DNA from: an uncultured Pirellulales bacterium
GTDB lineage: Bacteria > Planctomycetota > Planctomycetia > Pirellulales > Thermoguttaceae
Reading direction: 5' to 3'
Assembly (NCBI GenBank): GCA_938015445.1
Contig: CALLPE010000009.1
Location: 62,001 to 126,000 of the forward strand
DNA length: 64,000 bases
Of the stretch, positions 22,668 through 32,018 are shown one piece after another. Made by a program: the position numbers and the translations under genes. Position 1 is the first letter of the stretch. Each line of letters opens with the position of its first letter. The notes beneath the pieces were generated by a model. It was not told the origin of the DNA and ran no database searches. It saw only the letters and a program-made list of their open reading frames with translations.

Positions 22668-23528
22668 ATGGACACAAACGGGAAGCTTACCGGGCCGCAG
22701 TTGATGGCAGATAGGCCGGCGGAGCAACCAGCAGCGCGTACCACCATTGTCGGAGGTAGACCACCGGGCAGCGGGCAGCCGCTCGGTGATATCCCCAGGG
22801 GGATCGAAGTGCTGGTCAAGAAGGCCGCGGTGGACCCGGAGTTCAAGGATTTGCTGCTGGCCCAGCGCGCGGCAGCGGCTGAGGCGATAGGGATGGGGCT
22901 TTCGCCGGCTGAAAAGGCAATACTAGCGGCGGTCAGCACCGAGCAATTGGAGCAGATCATCGCCCAGACGATCGTGCCGGAGGCGCATCGTCGCGCATTC
23001 TTGGGCAAGGCGGCTGCGGCTATGCTGGCAGCGTTAGGCGCGATGACGGCCGGCCTACCAGGAGCTGAATCTCCTCCCCCCACCCGAGGCATCTCCCCAG
23101 ATAGGCCAGCCACTTTTGGAATATTTCCGGACGTGCCGCCCAGGCCAGGCGAAGGGATGGTGGAGCCGGCGCAATTGAATATGGAGCAGAAGATTATGCA
23201 GTTACTGGCAAAGCGGTACAGGATCGACGCCTCGAAGATCACCCGCGATATGTCGTTCGTCAAAGACCTAAAGGCCGACGCGGTGGACATTGTGGGGATG
23301 CGCCGCCAGTTCGAGCGACAGTTCGGCATTACTTTGCCAGCCAAGCAGTGGGCCAGCGTCAAGACGGTCGGCGACGCCATCGACCAGGTGCAAGAAGCGG
23401 TGCAGCAGAAAAGCCAGAAACAGACGCTTCCCAGCAAACAACAACAGAAAACTCCTGGCACGAAAGAACAGCCACAGCCGGCTCCTTTCCAAGGGCCGTG
23501 GGGGTTGGGCGGAGTGCGTCCGGAGTAA
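22668..23528 (+). CDS. Leader-like plus degenerate acyl-carrier-like protein
   Basis: A 286-aa protein of unknown function with a mosaic layout. Residues 26-34 are TIVGGRPPG. About 45-128 is an amphipathic helical region (VDPEFKDLLLAQRAAAAEAIG, then EAHRRAFLGKAAAAML) like the leader regions of Nif11- or nitrile-hydratase-type peptide precursors. About 134-160 is Pro-rich with two GI(S/F)PD(R/V)P motifs. About 168-245 resembles an acyl carrier protein (SFVKDLKADAVDIV), but the serine that would carry phosphopantetheine is Ala 205. A Gln/Lys/Pro tail ends GGVRPE. AGGAGG precedes the ATG. It is 98 bases upstream of a radical SAM gene, probably its partner. The domain interpretation is by eye. 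Confidence 0.7.
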   Translation: MDTNGKLTGPQLMADRPAEQPAARTTIVGGRPPGSGQPLGDIPRGIEVLVKKAAVDPEFKDLLLAQRAAAAEAIGMGLSPAEKAILAAVSTEQLEQIIAQTIVPEAHRRAFLGKAAAAMLAALGAMTAGLPGAESPPPTRGISPDRPATFGIFPDVPPRPGEGMVEPAQLNMEQKIMQLLAKRYRIDASKITRDMSFVKDLKADAVDIVGMRRQFERQFGITLPAKQWASVKTVGDAIDQVQEAVQQKSQKQTLPSKQQQKTPGTKEQPQPAPFQGPWGLGGVRPE

Positions 23529-23626
23529 GCGGGCAGGTGTTGGGCTTGGCCCGCGGGAGCAGTGCCAGCGCGCCCCGCTAAACTTCAGCAACGCTCGACC
23601 AGACCGCACTTGCTGGCGGTGAGCCA

Positions 23627-25096
23627 ATGGCCGACATCACGCTACTGAATCTGAACATGCTGTTCATGCGTTACGGCGAGGGGGTGGAGCGCGAGCTGCA
23701 CGTCCCGCTGGGACCGCTGTACCTGACCCGCGCGCTGGAAGCAGCCGGTTTCGAGGTCGACTTCCGCGACTATCAGTGCGTCGAGGCCGATGACCCGTTC
23801 GAAATGTCCGTGCTGCTGGACTTCCTCCGCGAGCCGGCGCCGGTGGTCGGCCTGAGTTGCATGGCCAATCTGCTGCCGTTTACGATTCTTGCGGCCCGGG
23901 CGATTCGTGAAGCTTATCCCGACCGCATAGTGGTGTTGGGCGGGGTGGGTTCCAAGGCGGTCGAGGAGAAGATTCTTACCCGCTTTCCCTGGATCGAAAT
24001 CATCGCTCGCGGCGAAGGCGAGCGCAGTGGCCCGCAGCTCCTGGCTGCTTTGCGCGGCAAAGTAGATATTGCGGAAGTTCCCGGCATCTCATATCGCTGT
24101 GACGGCGGGGTGTATCACAATCCTGACCCTCCCCGGATCAAGAACCTCGATTCGATCCCCTTTCCCGCCTTCGAGAAGATCGACCTGCGCCGTTACGCCG
24201 GGTACGGGATGATGACCAGCCGGGGATGCCCCTATCCCTGTACCTTCTGCTCGGTGGCACCGGTGTGGAACCTGGAGAGTTACTCCCGCAGCCCCAAAAA
24301 CATCGTCGACGAAATGGAGTTCCTCCACCAAGCCGCAGGTGTGGATTTGTTCCTGTTCCAGGACGAGTTCTTCGTTTCCGGAAAACGGCAGATAATGAAC
24401 TTCTGCCGCGAACTGGCCAGTCGCAACCTAGACGTACAGTGGAAAGCCTTCGGCCGGATCAACTTGGTGGACGAGGAAATGATGCAGGCCATGGCCGATG
24501 TGGGGTGCGTGGAACTACGCTTTGGCGTGGAGTCTGGCTCCGACCGCGTGCTGAAGGAAATCCGCAAGGGATTTACCGCTGCCCAGTCGCTGGAGATCGT
24601 TCCCAAGGCCGTGCAGTTGTTTCCCCGTGTGGACACATTCTTTGTATGGGGATTTCCCTTTGAGACGATGGAGGACTTCCACCAGTCGCTGTTCCAAATG
24701 GTGTCGTTCCGGATGATGGGCGCACGCATTCTCCCTAGCCTGCTATCGTTGCTTCCTCAAACAGAATTGTATCGTCAATGGTCCCGACGTGCACGGTTGG
24801 AGTTCTGCCCGTATCTGTTCCCCGAGTTCGTCTTCACCGGGCATGAAATATGCCGGGGCGGACAAATCGAATTGCCCGAGAAGCACCGCGATTACTTCGA
24901 CCTGATCATCGCCAATCCCGACGTGTTTCCTGGCTTCTTCCACATCGACTTGGAGCACAACGTACTGCCGAAGCTGGAACTGTTGCGGCAATTTGGGTTT
25001 TATCCGGAGCCGCAGCCGCAGCAGGCAGAAAGTTGCGGGGCGCATTCGCCGCGGATCGAGCCGCAGGAGTTGGCTACCCGCGCGGCGCGTGGCTGA
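23627..25096 (+). CDS. B12-binding-type radical SAM enzyme
   Basis: A 489-aa radical SAM protein. The N-terminal Rossmann-like region (about 1-150) resembles cobalamin-binding domains of the BchE/methyltransferase class, but the DxHxxG motif for base-off B12 is not seen. The radical SAM core carries SRGCPYPCTFCS, with Cys 201, 205 and 208 binding the 4Fe-4S cluster, followed by FQDEFF and ELRFGVESGSDRVLKEIRKG. Relatives methylate or rearrange unactivated carbons on lipids, antibiotics or peptides. The gene directly follows the carrier-like protein on the same strand, which may be its substrate or scaffold. The ATG at 23627 has only a weak ribosome site. Confidence 0.9.
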   Translation: MADITLLNLNMLFMRYGEGVERELHVPLGPLYLTRALEAAGFEVDFRDYQCVEADDPFEMSVLLDFLREPAPVVGLSCMANLLPFTILAARAIREAYPDRIVVLGGVGSKAVEEKILTRFPWIEIIARGEGERSGPQLLAALRGKVDIAEVPGISYRCDGGVYHNPDPPRIKNLDSIPFPAFEKIDLRRYAGYGMMTSRGCPYPCTFCSVAPVWNLESYSRSPKNIVDEMEFLHQAAGVDLFLFQDEFFVSGKRQIMNFCRELASRNLDVQWKAFGRINLVDEEMMQAMADVGCVELRFGVESGSDRVLKEIRKGFTAAQSLEIVPKAVQLFPRVDTFFVWGFPFETMEDFHQSLFQMVSFRMMGARILPSLLSLLPQTELYRQWSRRARLEFCPYLFPEFVFTGHEICRGGQIELPEKHRDYFDLIIANPDVFPGFFHIDLEHNVLPKLELLRQFGFYPEPQPQQAESCGAHSPRIEPQELATRAARG

Positions 25097-26585: not shown

Positions 26586-26954
26586 TCAATTGCTGGCGGC
26601 CAATTGCTCCAGGGCGTCGATCAGCGCTTGTTTGTCGAAGGGTTTAATCAGGAAGTCGGCCGCGCCGAGCCGGAAGGCCTCTTTCAACGTGGCCTTTTGC
26701 TCTAGGGCGCTTACGACGAGCACCCGGGCGTTTGGGTCGCACGCCATTATGCCGCGCAGCGCGTGTAACCCATCGTAGCCTGGCATTACCAAATCCAGTG
26801 TAACGGCGTGGGGACGCAGTTGGGCATACTGGTCGATTGCTTGCTGGCCGTCGGCGGCTTCGCCAGCTATCGTCCAACCGGCGCCGGCGGCTACGTCTTT
26901 TATCATGTGCCGGATGATCAGCGCGTCGTCGACTACCAGCAAAGTGCGAGACAT
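26586..26954 (-). CDS. cheY: CheY-like response regulator, last gene of che cluster
   Basis: A 122-aa single-domain receiver. The acidic pair is at 9-10 (VVDDA), the phosphoacceptor is Asp 54 (LDLVMPG), and Ser 83 (VVSA) and the Lys in IKPF are conserved. It likely takes phosphate from the CheA of the same cluster and acts on the flagellar or pilus motor or as a sink. AGGAAA lies eight bases upstream of the ATG. It is the last gene of the leftward cheR-cheA-cheC-cheD-cheY run. A second cheY-like gene lies at 33789 on the other strand. Confidence 0.92.
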   Translation of the reverse strand: MSRTLLVVDDALIIRHMIKDVAAGAGWTIAGEAADGQQAIDQYAQLRPHAVTLDLVMPGYDGLHALRGIMACDPNARVLVVSALEQKATLKEAFRLGAADFLIKPFDKQALIDALEQLAASN

Positions 26955-27054
26955 GACAATGTTTCCTGCGTACCTCTGCGCCGGAATGTCCAGAATAAAT
27001 GTTTGATGTAACAGGGGCTCGCCCGACGGATATAGTGGTTGTAGCCGTGTGTCT

Positions 27055-27102
27055 GGTTGTAGGCTGCGCCGGATATATGGTTGCAGGCAGCGCCGGATAC
27101 AG
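27055..27102. repeat. 24-bp tandem duplication between cheD and cheY
   Basis: Units 27055-27078 and 27079-27102 share GGTTGYAGGCWGCGCCGGATA. They lie between the cheD stop and the cheY start, 101-148 bases upstream of cheY. Non-coding. Confidence 0.75.
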
Positions 27103-27105
27103 GGG

Positions 27106-27588
27106 TCACAAGGTCTTGCGGGGCATTCCTACGCAGTCGATGTGCAGTTCGCCGGTGCCACAATCCAGTTCCACGCGCCGTCCTTGTGTGCCGCCGGTGT
27201 CCTGACCCGCAATGCGCAGACCTGCTTGCTGAAGAACCTCCTTGACGACCTCCGCATTGGCGTCGCCGATTTGCAACGGCCCACCTTTGCCGAACATGCA
27301 CGCACCGCCGGCTATCTTGATTATCAATTCGCTGCGGACTGCACCTTTACGTTCCATAAGTCCGAGCAGGTGAGGCACGGCGGTATCGGCGAACTTCCCA
27401 GGGTTGGCCACGGCGCCGTTGGCTCGCGGCAGCACGACGTGAGCAAGCCCGCCTAGCCGCAGTCTGGGGCTGTACATTGCCACGCCCACACAGGAGCCAA
27501 GCACGGCGGCCAAGCGAACGGGGGCCTGGGCGACGACGATTTCGCCCATGCCCACGTTCTTCTGCTCTCCGATAGCGGCCAGAACCAT
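27106..27588 (-). CDS. cheD: CheD, chemoreceptor glutamine deamidase-like
   Basis: A 160-aa CheD-family protein. The nucleophile Cys 33 (LGSCVGVAM) and His 50 (GGLAHVVLP) are present with the same 17-residue spacing as in Thermotoga CheD (Cys 27, His 44). The third putative triad residue, a Thr six positions before the Cys, is Ala 27 here, so activity may be reduced. CheD deamidates receptor glutamines and partners with CheC, whose gene is directly upstream. AAGGAC lies about ten bases before the ATG at 27588. Confidence 0.92.
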   Translation of the reverse strand: MVLAAIGEQKNVGMGEIVVAQAPVRLAAVLGSCVGVAMYSPRLRLGGLAHVVLPRANGAVANPGKFADTAVPHLLGLMERKGAVRSELIIKIAGGACMFGKGGPLQIGDANAEVVKEVLQQAGLRIAGQDTGGTQGRRVELDCGTGELHIDCVGMPRKTL

Positions 27589-27766
27589 GGTTGCCGGTCC
27601 TTATCGCAAAGTGATGGGTGAAAGTGTTTGTTGTTATGCGGCGATTTTCTTTGGATTGCAGCGGCTTGCCGACGTTCGGCATTCTGCTGAATATGATGCC
27701 CACACACCCACCGCCCCTGGTAGCAAAACTATAGTGCAGTCGGCGGCAGGAGGTGCCTGTGCTGTG

Positions 27767-28441
27767 TCAGGTGGTGTGGTTGCATAGGTTTACCTCCGGT
27801 TTGAGGGCAGGAGCTTCTGGTGGTTCGGACTGCCAGGGCATGGCATTTTCCATCGCTACGCGCAAGGTCTCGTTGGGTACGAACAGGATGTGCCAATTCA
27901 GGTCCACGCCATGGCGGTGAAATCCGGTACGGCAAACCACCGCTTTGTCGCTGGTTATCGCCTGTGCAATCAGCGCCTGTTGCAGCACGCTGGCCCCGTA
28001 GTCTTGGATGAAATATGGCGCAGATGGGACCAGCTCTTGGTTTATCAGGCGGCTGATGGCGTTCATGTACGCGCAGCCAAGAATATTGCCCGTCTCCGTA
28101 AGCGCCGATTGCTCCAATTCGCTCCACTGTGGCGAGTCGCTGACGGGGCAGTTCAGCAACGCGGCGGCCAATTGCCGTGCGTTGACTTCGTCGAAGGCCA
28201 GGATCATCACTCCGCCCAGTTCCTTGTCGATGGTCAACACCACCATGGTCAACAGCTCGTCGCCGATGCCCAGGGTGGGGCAGACTTCGGGCAAGGGGAT
28301 TTCACGCACCTCATCGAGCGTCAAGCTGATCAGGCCGCTGGTCCAGCGGCACATGGCCACCGAGGCATCGTTAGTCGCCGAGGCCAGTAACTGATGAAGA
28401 ACGGCGAGCTTTGGGTTTTCTAAGCAGGCGTTGGTCGTCAT
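27767..28441 (-). CDS. cheC: CheC-like phosphatase/scaffold protein
   Basis: A 224-aa CheC/CheX/FliY-family protein. The phosphatase signature S-x3-E-x2-N is seen once, in SALTETGNILGCAYMNAIS; a second copy, usual in CheC, is not evident. Early parts (LGIGDELLTMVVLTIDKELGGVMILAF) match the CheC fold. CheC dephosphorylates CheY-P and binds CheD, encoded next. The ATG at 28441 has AAAGGTG upstream and is preferred to an ATG nine codons earlier (28468). The C-terminal part after about residue 190 is longer than in typical CheC (about 205 aa). Confidence 0.85.
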   Translation of the reverse strand: MTTNACLENPKLAVLHQLLASATNDASVAMCRWTSGLISLTLDEVREIPLPEVCPTLGIGDELLTMVVLTIDKELGGVMILAFDEVNARQLAAALLNCPVSDSPQWSELEQSALTETGNILGCAYMNAISRLINQELVPSAPYFIQDYGASVLQQALIAQAITSDKAVVCRTGFHRHGVDLNWHILFVPNETLRVAMENAMPWQSEPPEAPALKPEVNLCNHTT

Positions 28442-28583
28442 CACGGGCACCTTTCTGGCATTCTGCAAGGCGTCAATAGTGATTCAAAACAAGTCGTGGC
28501 CGTAATCGTAAGAACAACTCGTTGCTGTGATCTTGCACACAAGTTGCGGCGTATTTTTGCGCTGCTCCGTGGCGTGGTGGTTG

Positions 28584-31500
28584 TCAAACTCCGACAGCTT
28601 GTTTGTTAGTAACGAAATTCGGTTGTTTGCTGGTATTGGCAGATTTTTGTCGGGCGCCGCCGAGCGAAGCCATGTCGATCAGGGCTGCCAAGTCCAATAT
28701 CAGCGCCACCCGGCCATCGCCGAGGATGCTAGCGCCGGCGATGCCCGGCACGTTGCGGTAGTTTTCGGCCACCGACTTGATGACGATGTCTTCCTCGCCA
28801 ATGACCCGATCGACGGCCAGCCCCAGTTCGCGCTGTTGTTCGCCGACGATCACCAGAGCGGCGTCGCCGCAGTCGGCCGATTGTCGGTCGCGTGCGGTGT
28901 TTTGGCGTGCCCAGTGATACACGTCGCGCAGATGGACAACCGAGATCACCCGCCCTCGCACCCGCGCCGTCAGCACGCCGTGTACAGTTTGCAGCTCTTG
29001 GCTATTGAGGCGGACGATTTCCACCACTCCTTCAATCGGCATGGCCAACACATCGCCGTCGATTTCCACCAGCAGGCTGGGGAGGATGGCCAGGGTTAGC
29101 GGCAGCTTGATGGTCAGGCAAGTGCCTTTGCCGGGTTGACTGTCTAGCTCCACCGTGCCGTTGAGCTGCTCGATCTTCGAGCGGACGATATCCATGCCCA
29201 TCCCGCGGCCGGAAACTTCGGTCACTTTCTCTGCGGTGCTCAGCCCTGGTTCCCAGATCAATTGGTATATTTGTCGCCGGGTCATCTTCTCCAAGTCGGC
29301 CTCGGTCACCAGTCCCTTTTCTAGGGCTTTGCGGGCTATTCTGTCGGCGTCGAGGCCCTTGCCGTCGTCGCTGACTTGAATGACGATGCTGTTGCCGCGG
29401 TGGAAGGCATCCAGCGTCACCGTTCCGTGGGGAGGCTTGCCGGCGGCGACGCGCACTTCCGGCGGTTCTATTCCATGATCGACGGCGTTGCGCACCATGT
29501 GGATCAACGGATCGTTCAACTCGTCGATCATTCGCTTGTCCAGCTCGGTCTTCTCGCCGTTGAGCACTAGGTTGACCGTCTTGCCGCTGGCCCGGCTCAG
29601 GTCGCGCACTACCCGCTTGAAACGATGGAACAATGGTCCGATGGGCAACATGCGGGTGTCCATCACCGTGTGTTGCAAGCTGTCGGTGACCAGCTCCAAC
29701 TGATGGACGGTTTCCACGTAGTCGTTCAGGGCCGAGCGGGCCAGGGCCAGCGACTCTACGTCGCGTTGTACTACCTCCAGTTCGTTCTGTGCCCGACGCA
29801 CTTCGGCGCGCAAGTGTTCCAGCTCGAACTGTGCTTCTTCTGCGCCGCGGACCGTATCGCCGTTAGCGATCTTCTCTAGAATTCCCAGCACGTTCCGCAT
29901 GGCCTGCGATGATTGTCGCGCAGCCAAGGCGTTTTTCAGTCGATCGCCGATGCGCGTGAAGCGGGCCTTGTTGATCACCAACTGCCCGGCCAAGTTCATC
30001 AACTGATCCAGCCGCTCGATGTCCACGCGAAGGGTTTCGGCGGCTTTTGGAACCGCTTCGGGCTGCCGTCCCCTGGCGCTGGCCGGCGCGCCGGCGGGCA
30101 CAGCGTCGGCCATGGCGCTGGCAGGTGCTGTGCCGGGCGCCGCGCCAGCCCCTGCACCGCTGGCTGCACCAAATACTGTGCTGGTCTGGGCGGTGGTCGC
30201 TGCTCCAGCCTGTCCACGAGTCGGTGCGCCAGTCGGCCAATCGGTCTGTGCGCCGGTCTGGGGGCCGCTGGCTGCTGTGGCGAGTGCCGCCTGCTCCGAG
30301 TTTGCGCAGCCGATCGTCGCCGTGGCGGTCGGTGCTTGTGCAAGGTCGGTGACTGCTGCGCCGGTGTGGGCGCTTTCGGTGGATGTAAGTACGTGCGCAG
30401 AAGTCCTATCCACCTGCGGCTGCGCCGAGAAGGCCAAAGGTTCGATCAAAATCTGGCGGACACCGGCCACACGCAGCTTGCTTTGTACCTCGGCTGCGGG
30501 CCGTTCGGTGACGACGCCGAAGGCTACCCATTCAAGCTCTTGTTGTTCCTCGACCTTATCGGCCGGAGGGTCGAAGTAGCATACCTCTCCCATCCGGGCG
30601 AGCTTCTCGTAAACCAGCCGCGCTTTTAGGCCTGCCAAGGGCAACCGGGCTTCGAACTGCAACAGGCCCACATAAGTCTTTGCCGGGTCGCGGCTCCCTT
30701 GTGCCACACTGGCGCGAACCTGTTCGATCATCTCGGGCTTGTGATGCAGGACCGGGGCGGCCTGGGTTGGCGGCGCAGAAGCGGACGTTTGGGCGATCGC
30801 TGCTGTTTGGTCTTCCGCGGACGCAGCTAGCAGCTCGTGCGTCAGATAGTTGAACCGTTCGGTAGACGGTCGGCCGCGCTTCAGCCCATCTATGTACTGC
30901 CGCAAGCCGTCGGCGCACATCAGCAAAGCGTCGGTGATCTTGGGCGTCAACTGCTGATTGTTATTGAGCAATTTTTGCAGCAAGTCTTCCATCAAGTGGG
31001 CCAGCTTCGCCGGCCGGTTCAGTCCTACCGAGGCAGCCGAACCCTTGATGCGGTGGGCGATGATCATCACTTGCTCGACGGTTTCCCGGCTGGGAGCTTC
31101 CTCCAGCGCCAATAGCGTTTCGGTAAGTTGGTCGAGCGACAGATCCGCCTCGTCGATGAAGATGGCCAGATACTTCGAGGGGGTTTCTGTTTCGTCGGTC
31201 AGGTCGGCGAAGTAATCGACAGCCGGCGGCGTTGCGTAGTTCTCCTCGCTGCCCTGAGATAGGTCGGCCGAGACCGCGGGTTGTGCCGCAGGGTACTGTT
31301 CCGTCGGCCCGCTGGTCTGCTGGTCCATGGCTTGATCGACTGCGCACAGCTCGGCTGATTCGACCGGAGATACCGATTCGACCAGCAAGACCGACTCAAC
31401 TGGCAATGGCGACTCAACTGGGTGTAACGCTTTGGCCGGGCCGCCCGTCTTTTCGTCCGCAGTAGCCGAGTCGGCCGATGGGGCGGAAATAGCGGCTTGC

Positions 31501-32018
31501 ACATCCCCACCAGCGTCGCTAGCCGGTTGTTGCAACGCCCGTTCCGCGTCGGCCTGGCTGGACTGCTGCCTTTCCACCCCGGCTTGGCGCAGCAAGCGGG
31601 CGATTTCCTCTGCCACCGAGCGGCTTTCGACAGGCGGGGCGCCCGGATTTTTCAGAGTTTCGACTAGATGCTCCAGGCAGTCCACGGCGCGGAACACCAG
31701 CTCCACTACATCTTCGGTCACGTGCAGTTCTTTTCGCCGTGCGGCATCCAGCACGTTTTCGACTTTATGGGTGAGGCTGTTGATGTCGCTCAGCCCCAGC
31801 ATTGCCGACAGCCCCTTCAGGCTGTGGGCAGCGCGGAACATCTCGTTGAGCAACTCCTGGTGGCTGGCTTCTGACAATCCGTCGAGGCTTCTGACCAAAT
31901 GATCCAACTGGAGCAAGTTCTCGTTAAGCCGACCGAGAAGTTGGCTCGACTCATCGAGAAAATCTCCCAGCAGCGAGTCGAACAGTTCGTCGTGTGCAGG
32001 AACGGCAGGGTCTGACAC
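28584..32018 (-). CDS. cheA: CheA histidine kinase with two HPt domains
   Basis: A 1,144-aa CheA, longer than the usual 650-700. HPt 1 has His 65 (RAAHSLKG) and HPt 2 has His 322 (IAHRIKGSA), separated by a linker with four VES repeats (201-222). An Ala/Thr/Gly-rich low-complexity linker (about 570-660) precedes the dimerisation helices, the HATPase (HMVRNAVDHGIE, DDGKGLD, GRGMGMDIV) and a C-terminal CheW domain (about 1000-1120). It phosphorylates CheY proteins in response to receptors. The start is GTG at 32018 with AGGAGG about six bases upstream. No separate cheW, cheB or receptor gene is in the window. Confidence 0.95.
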   Translation of the reverse strand: MSDPAVPAHDELFDSLLGDFLDESSQLLGRLNENLLQLDHLVRSLDGLSEASHQELLNEMFRAAHSLKGLSAMLGLSDINSLTHKVENVLDAARRKELHVTEDVVELVFRAVDCLEHLVETLKNPGAPPVESRSVAEEIARLLRQAGVERQQSSQADAERALQQPASDAGGDVQAAISAPSADSATADEKTGGPAKALHPVESPLPVESVLLVESVSPVESAELCAVDQAMDQQTSGPTEQYPAAQPAVSADLSQGSEENYATPPAVDYFADLTDETETPSKYLAIFIDEADLSLDQLTETLLALEEAPSRETVEQVMIIAHRIKGSAASVGLNRPAKLAHLMEDLLQKLLNNNQQLTPKITDALLMCADGLRQYIDGLKRGRPSTERFNYLTHELLAASAEDQTAAIAQTSASAPPTQAAPVLHHKPEMIEQVRASVAQGSRDPAKTYVGLLQFEARLPLAGLKARLVYEKLARMGEVCYFDPPADKVEEQQELEWVAFGVVTERPAAEVQSKLRVAGVRQILIEPLAFSAQPQVDRTSAHVLTSTESAHTGAAVTDLAQAPTATATIGCANSEQAALATAASGPQTGAQTDWPTGAPTRGQAGAATTAQTSTVFGAASGAGAGAAPGTAPASAMADAVPAGAPASARGRQPEAVPKAAETLRVDIERLDQLMNLAGQLVINKARFTRIGDRLKNALAARQSSQAMRNVLGILEKIANGDTVRGAEEAQFELEHLRAEVRRAQNELEVVQRDVESLALARSALNDYVETVHQLELVTDSLQHTVMDTRMLPIGPLFHRFKRVVRDLSRASGKTVNLVLNGEKTELDKRMIDELNDPLIHMVRNAVDHGIEPPEVRVAAGKPPHGTVTLDAFHRGNSIVIQVSDDGKGLDADRIARKALEKGLVTEADLEKMTRRQIYQLIWEPGLSTAEKVTEVSGRGMGMDIVRSKIEQLNGTVELDSQPGKGTCLTIKLPLTLAILPSLLVEIDGDVLAMPIEGVVEIVRLNSQELQTVHGVLTARVRGRVISVVHLRDVYHWARQNTARDRQSADCGDAALVIVGEQQRELGLAVDRVIGEEDIVIKSVAENYRNVPGIAGASILGDGRVALILDLAALIDMASLGGARQKSANTSKQPNFVTNKQAVGV

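Follow-up and report, generated by a model that had tools for sequence, protein, structure and literature searches.

What does a bacterium do with a leader-like protein whose acyl-carrier-like domain lacks the phosphopantetheine serine, and how is it connected with the B12-type radical SAM enzyme encoded behind it? The two genes lie in the window, by which we mean the whole analysed stretch of 64,000 nucleotides. ORF 1 (22668-23528, 286 aa) and ORF 2 (23627-25096, 489 aa) are both on the forward strand and 98 bases apart, in agreement with the coordinates, lengths and spacing of a preliminary description made from the sequence. In that description the enzyme was proposed to modify the GxxPDxP region of the first protein, with the carrier fold as a recognition platform. 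The features of the locus are as follows.

22668..23528, forward strand: putative leader-bearing substrate protein, 286 aa, with NHLP leader, export-signal-like segment, GxxPDxP motifs and degenerate ACP domain
22743..22769, forward strand: conserved N-terminal block TIVGGRPPG, residues 26-34; TIVG is present in 84/127 family proteins and near-invariant in A3
22797..22982, forward strand: NHLP-clan (Os1348-type) leader domain, residues 44-105, assigned by profile matches (NF038399, 6lk7) and a confident helical prediction
22989..23066, forward strand: signal-peptide-like segment, residues 108-133, RRAFLGKAAAAMLAALGAMTAGLPGA; the version in relatives often ends in a lipobox Cys
23088..23108, forward strand: motif 1, GISPDRP, residues 141-147
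23118..23138, forward strand: motif 2, GIFPDVP, residues 151-157
23178..23417, forward strand: acyl-carrier-like passenger domain, residues 171-250, with Ala205 for the phosphopantetheine Ser; found in no other family protein
23280..23282, forward strand: codon gcg of Ala205, at the phosphopantetheine-Ser position
23508..23525, forward strand: C-terminal GGVRPE, probable degenerate third motif copy, aligned with GIRPD of L072
23627..25096, forward strand: B12-binding radical SAM enzyme, 489 aa, partner of the leader protein
24227..24250, forward strand: radical SAM cluster motif CPYPCTFC, residues 201-208; its cysteines are invariant in 60 relatives
25031..25051, forward strand: enzyme tail SCGAHSP, residues 469-475, conserved yet predicted disordered

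The two GxxPDxP motifs noticed earlier are present, starting at residues 141 and 151. The motif-like C-terminus is present as well, and its actual end is GGVRPE rather than GGVRP. Its alignment with GIRPD of L072 (Pirellulaceae), the nearest relative, whose enzyme is 79% identical to that of the window, suggests a third motif copy that has degenerated. The N-terminal TIVGGRPPG is a separate conserved block. No riboswitch or other RNA control element is found in the window at Rfam thresholds. Downstream of the pair, chemotaxis-like genes (CheY-, CheD-, CheC- and CheA-like by eye) occupy 26586-32018 on the reverse strand and show no sign of linkage to it.

The pairing of the two genes is found far outside this locus. 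A search with the leader part in 392 Planctomycetota genomes gives nine leader-positive genomes, in which the leader genes often stand in tandem arrays, and seven of these genomes besides that of the window have a radical SAM gene beside the leader genes, 55-74% identical to the window's. Close enzymes, defined here as E<1e-250, occur in 8 of the 392 genomes; all eight are leader-positive, and one further genome has the leader only (Fisher p 7e-16). An independent second phylum, sampled as 193 genomes around a myxococcal locus, behaves in the same way, with the enzyme in five genomes, all five leader-positive, and two leader-only genomes, one of which has the leader at a contig edge (Fisher p 1e-8). 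A scan with the enzyme alignment across 84,980 species confirmed 98 relatives; the 80 loci obtained from it are nearly all from metagenome-assembled genomes or uncultured bacteria. They belong to Planctomycetota, Lentisphaerota, Verrucomicrobiota, Kiritimatiellota, Myxococcota, Thermodesulfobacteriota, Riflebacteria, Armatimonadota, Spirochaetota, Elusimicrobia, Zixibacteria, Coatesbacteria, Chloroflexota, Aminicenantes and others. The leader gene lies directly upstream of the enzyme gene on the same strand in 67/80 loci, with a median gap of 16 bp, and just downstream in two; up to six leader genes accompany one enzyme. Homologues of the two genes therefore occur together and in the order seen in the window, as the preliminary description expected for a functional link, and are not apart in most genomes. 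Pairwise distances of leaders and enzymes are correlated as well (r 0.77, permutation maximum 0.22). Taken together, these comparisons support a conserved functional pair. Chance pairing of two neighbours is ruled out by the genome-level co-occurrence and the locus adjacency.

The leader is undetected at 11 of the 80 loci. Four of these (L077, L100, L110, L120) have too little upstream sequence, another four (L147, L149-L151) form one divergent Desulfobacterales-type branch, of which one is also short of upstream sequence, and three (L081, L133, L141) are unexplained. In L149 (9288-9860), L150 (9245-9886) and L151 (9233-9823) a protein of about 190 aa precedes a divergent enzyme, about 49% identical and without the SCGAHSP tail. 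These proteins start like a signal peptide, lack the NHLP leader and share a conserved C-terminus, VRTPSAVAGVRG or VRTPSAVAAVRG; the branch may be a version of the system that has lost the leader and uses another tag. The leader-only planctomycetotal genome (G266) has at L065 8722-9198 an in-frame fusion of the leader to the final ~50 enzyme residues, ending ESCGAHSPRGQDLATR, apparently the product of an internal deletion in which most of both genes was lost. Among 60 genomes of the window's own family, only G015 (81% complete) has a leader homologue, and the close enzyme is not found in it. Several phyla cohere in the enzyme tree and others are mixed, and the presence of the system is patchy, a pattern that suggests transfer but does not prove it.

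Clustering of all neighbouring ORFs reveals no conserved third gene (protease, transporter or RRE protein). The largest cluster, from 22 loci, looks like antisense reading frames, since all its members lie on the strand opposite to the enzyme and overlap the enzyme and leader genes. Signalling kinases and transport genes, at no constant distance, make up the next clusters. Several loci have peculiarities of their own. L090 (10001-11474) and L140 (10001-11443) contain one stop codon inside the matched enzyme range, from a frameshift, a pseudogene or an assembly error. L162 and L163 (L163 4448-11969), both from Planctomycetota, contain a PqqD-like protein, three B12-type radical SAM enzymes in a row and a HemW-like radical SAM protein, and L163 has two small peptides ending in GCxxGCKDGC-type repeats; they are probably a different RiPP cluster.

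The N-terminal region of the window protein is supported as a RiPP-type leader. Residues 45-97 match NF038399, the Os1348 family, with E 3.7e-8 and 33 bits, slightly short of the 40-bit cut-off; the same profile matches 115/122 family proteins, so the resemblance to peptide-precursor leaders suspected earlier is borne out. Weaker matches are to Frankia_peptide (PF14407) and nitrile hydratase alpha. In a profile search the leader also matches the Os1348 crystal entry 6lk7 at 1e-4, and AlphaFold predicts it as helical with pLDDT 92-97. NHLP leaders are folded and are engaged by enzymes through protein-protein contacts (PMC12455567). It is this leader, not the carrier fold, that appears to be the platform common to the family.

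Behind the leader, the G..PD.P motif occurs 150 times in 127 proteins, as against 2.0 times in shuffled sequences, and its density is 8.7 per 1000 aa, as against 0.034 in neighbouring ORFs of the same loci (~250x). Its presence in the window protein is therefore not due to chance. The extended family consensus is [T/S]-[R/K]-G-I-R-P-D-x-P. Within it the Gly is the most constant position (150/163 ...PD.P), followed by the Asp (150/182) and the Pro (150/202). The first motif lies at a median of 18 residues behind the leader and the last at a median of 19 residues from the C-terminus, so the motifs flank whatever sits between. No recognisable G..[PA][DE] motif is present in 19/127 family proteins. 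In the AlphaFold model of the window protein the linkers around both motifs are of low confidence. As the recurrent motif of the family, GxxPDxP is the best candidate for the target of the adjacent enzyme. Two Myxococcota-type loci, L130 and L132, have five or six leader genes with tails of long DTDTDT repeats, many with a GxGPD-type motif.

Between leader and motifs lies a segment that falls outside the Os1348 domain match. A hydrophobic segment directly follows the leader in 109/127 family members, with an RR-type motif in 51/127 and a lipobox-like Cys in 61/127. Its general form is RRxFLGK, then the hydrophobic stretch and often the lipobox Cys; the window protein has the RR and the hydrophobic stretch, and no lipobox Cys. 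Cysteine is 10x commoner in this segment than in the leader and 4x commoner than in the mature part. At -1 of the segment Cys, 80/89 cases have Gly, Ala or Ser (p 6e-24), and LIVMF residues are enriched at -3 (p 1e-7). The passenger domains of relatives include type II secretion protein G (T2SSG), TonB_C and AgmX/PglI C-termini, a PBP C-terminus, a CarboxypepD_reg beta-sandwich, FG-GAP and a PHB-depolymerase-like esterase, which by their domain matches are typical of the envelope. Because of the Cys and lipobox statistics and these envelope-type passengers, we read the substrate N-terminus as a putative leader plus signal peptide. The preliminary description had overlooked both the running of the leader into an export-signal-like segment and the envelope-type passengers. 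An RR export route is only plausible for the window genome, because TatC has no match in its own assembly (G000, ~88% complete) yet is present in 36/40 relatives; the missing TatC is probably due to incompleteness of the assembly.

The second gene encodes a radical SAM enzyme with a cobalamin-binding domain, as described earlier. It matches B12-binding PF02310 (3e-10) and Radical_SAM PF04055 (3e-18), the cobalamin-binding Rossmann domain preceding the barrel with CxxxCxxC at 201-208; C201, C205 and C208 are the invariant cysteines. The predicted fold has a mean pLDDT of 90. It matches MgmA best, then OxsB, TsrM, AprD4, CysS and TokK, of which OxsB, TsrM and TokK are cobalamin-bound structures. 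C470-S474 of the enzyme tail are >=90% conserved and have pLDDT under 50. The best NCBIfam profile is ApyD (NF050148) with 176 bits, far under its equivalog cut-off of 750 bits, and profile searches give no match of the enzyme to an RRE-type family. B12 radical SAM enzymes also catalyse non-methylation chemistry (OxsB, BchE), and AprD4 is a related fold; the nearest folds of the window enzyme likewise include both methyltransferases and non-methylases. C-methylation, the leading guess, is for this reason a plurality guess, with about even chances of being right.

The acyl-carrier-like domain with Ala205 in place of the serine is also genuine. Residues 171-250 match TIGR00517 (E 5e-14) and PF00550 (above the gathering score), and score below every ACP equivalog cut-off. 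AlphaFold predicts an ACP-like four-helix bundle with moderate confidence, and Foldseek matches it to solved ACPs with probability 1.00 and TM by target of 0.6-0.7. Of 32 stretches aligned from the closest homologous ACP loci, 29 have Ser at the column of Ala205, among them the ACP of the window genome itself. The domain is confined to this one protein. Among 122 family proteins scanned, only the window protein has a PP-binding match, and a phmmer search with the ACP part yields no second case; where the window protein has the ACP, L072 (Pirellulaceae) and the homologue from G015, of the window's own family, contain additional GIRPDRP copies. A comparison of the carrier position with Ser-bearing relatives, suggested earlier, is void, since no family relative has a carrier domain. 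For the same reason the carrier fold fails as a general recognition platform and is ruled out in this role: every other collected member lacks it, the nearest relative included. The serine-less ACP thus appears to be a lineage-specific passenger and not an acyl carrier, and the loss of the Ser fits a protein that would no longer carry acyl groups.

From the architecture, gene linkage, motif enrichment and fold classes of this family we infer a mechanism that is probably the best explanation of the locus. The adjacent B12-dependent radical SAM enzyme would recognise the folded NHLP (Os1348-type) leader of the substrate protein and, still in the cytoplasm, modify the GxxPD(xP) motifs behind it, most likely by C-methylation of a carbon in or beside the motif. 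The export signal fused directly behind the leader would then carry the modified protein through the membrane. Signal cleavage, by signal peptidase II at the lipobox Cys in many relatives and by signal peptidase I in others, would remove the leader too, and therefore no dedicated leader protease or transporter would be needed. The absence of a conserved third gene fits such use of the general export machinery. The cargo behind or between the motifs would be interchangeable: nothing, a pseudopilin-like, TonB C-terminal, esterase or beta-sandwich domain, or the serine-less ACP fold. Each step taken by itself has a precedent: the contacts of enzymes with NHLP leaders, the C-methylation of a RiPP residue by ApyD (PMC10635010) and, for export, the MNIO-modified precursors, which bear signals of the Sec or lipoprotein type and among which protein-sized substrates may occur (PMC12452194).

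The same gene pair could also be a classical RiPP system, in which small secreted bacteriocin-like peptides are cut from modified GxxPDxP-rich tails and the hydrophobic segment is merely part of the leader. NHLP leaders are RiPP leaders, and B12 radical SAM proteins are RiPP tailoring enzymes, with ApyD as the best NCBIfam match here. Tandem leader-gene arrays are present in family loci, tandem paralogous precursors being common in proteusin-like clusters, and many family tails are short and Pro-rich. We nevertheless consider this unlikely: in many substrates motifs stand on both sides of a folded passenger domain, the neighbourhoods contain no conserved protease or ABC transporter, and the segment in question has lipobox statistics and lies beyond the Os1348 domain match.

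Two further readings give the ACP-like domain a larger part, and both seem very improbable. The enzyme may act on another target, such as a lipid, with the leader protein as carrier or membrane anchor and its ACP-like domain presenting the substrate. The ACP fold of the window protein and the lipid-modifying members of the enzyme superfamily (HpnJ, ladderane-type) agree with this, whereas the lack of the Ser and the restriction of the domain to a single family protein do not; several substrates per enzyme (up to six leader genes per locus) and a repeated short motif fit protein modification, and the best fold match is a protein methyltransferase. Slightly less probable still is a specific regulatory or scaffold role of the domain, for example in enzyme binding as in the preliminary description. 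The fold and the surroundings of the Ser position are kept despite the loss of the Ser, so some binding surface may be under selection; however, the absence of the domain from L072 and from the G015 leader homologue rules out a general recognition role. We retain leader-guided modification of the GxxPD motifs followed by export, with the ACP domain, highlighted at first, as incidental. The main interest lies in the export signal and in the spread over many phyla.

As judged by sequence, the gene pair belongs to a conserved two-gene system in more than a dozen mostly uncultured phyla, and this system is apparently undescribed. The NHLP leader, the B12 radical SAM enzyme and the export signal are each of a known kind, and their combination is apparently new; no description of the three joined was found in the literature searched, which was thin on subscription journals. 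That the groups are almost entirely uncultured may explain why the system went unnoticed. Only tentatively do we propose a wider role as a general tagging system for envelope proteins. The leader-guided enzyme might introduce an unusual modification at a carbon of short GxxPDxP tags on either side of folded, exported and interchangeable passengers, and ordinary signal peptidase cleavage would take off the leader at the same time. Rather than natural-product biosynthesis, this would be a post-translational mark on exported proteins in more than a dozen phyla, and the related leader-less branch would keep a signal peptide and a C-terminal AVAGVRG-type tag. With this system, leader-guided radical chemistry would reach beyond small secreted peptides to folded envelope proteins. 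A sharp, testable motif anchors the whole system, and its size of two genes suits a direct co-expression test in E. coli.

Several known systems share parts of this arrangement. The precursors of the Os1348-Franean1_4349 type, reportedly of the NHLP clan of Haft et al. 2010, likewise have a folded helical leader with homology to the N-terminus of nitrile hydratase alpha, and their genes, too, lie beside modification genes. In the window family, by contrast, the export-signal-like segment and the GxxPDxP repeats come after the leader, often together with a folded passenger. The gene next to Os1348 encodes an acetyltransferase, and a radical SAM enzyme is absent from that account (PMC7726476). 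Bacterial ACPs (TIGR00517, PF00550) share fold and sequence with residues 171-250, whereas the window domain has Ala for the phosphopantetheine Ser and stays under the equivalog cut-offs. On the enzyme side, MgmA, the MCR glutamine C-methyltransferase (PDB 9ccb), is the best fold match (E 1e-21) and also acts on a protein rather than a small peptide; however, the identity is 20%, its substrate is methyl-coenzyme M reductase in methanogens, and it has no leader system. ApyD of the aminopyruvatide pathway is again a B12 radical SAM enzyme and C-methylates a residue of a ribosomal peptide (RiPP), but contains an RRE (PMC10635010), for which the window enzyme has no match. No P450, MNIO or ordinary methyltransferase lies beside the window pair, unlike in that pathway, and the substrate leader differs. 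The bufferins and other MNIO-modified RiPPs come close in the design of the substrate, since their precursors have an export signal, some being lipoproteins and some fused to other domains (PMC12452194). They are modified, mostly at Cys motifs, by an MNIO that works with a partner protein (PMC12452194), whereas the adjacent enzyme here is a radical SAM protein with no conserved third gene; and their signal replaces the leader, whereas that of the window family follows an NHLP leader.
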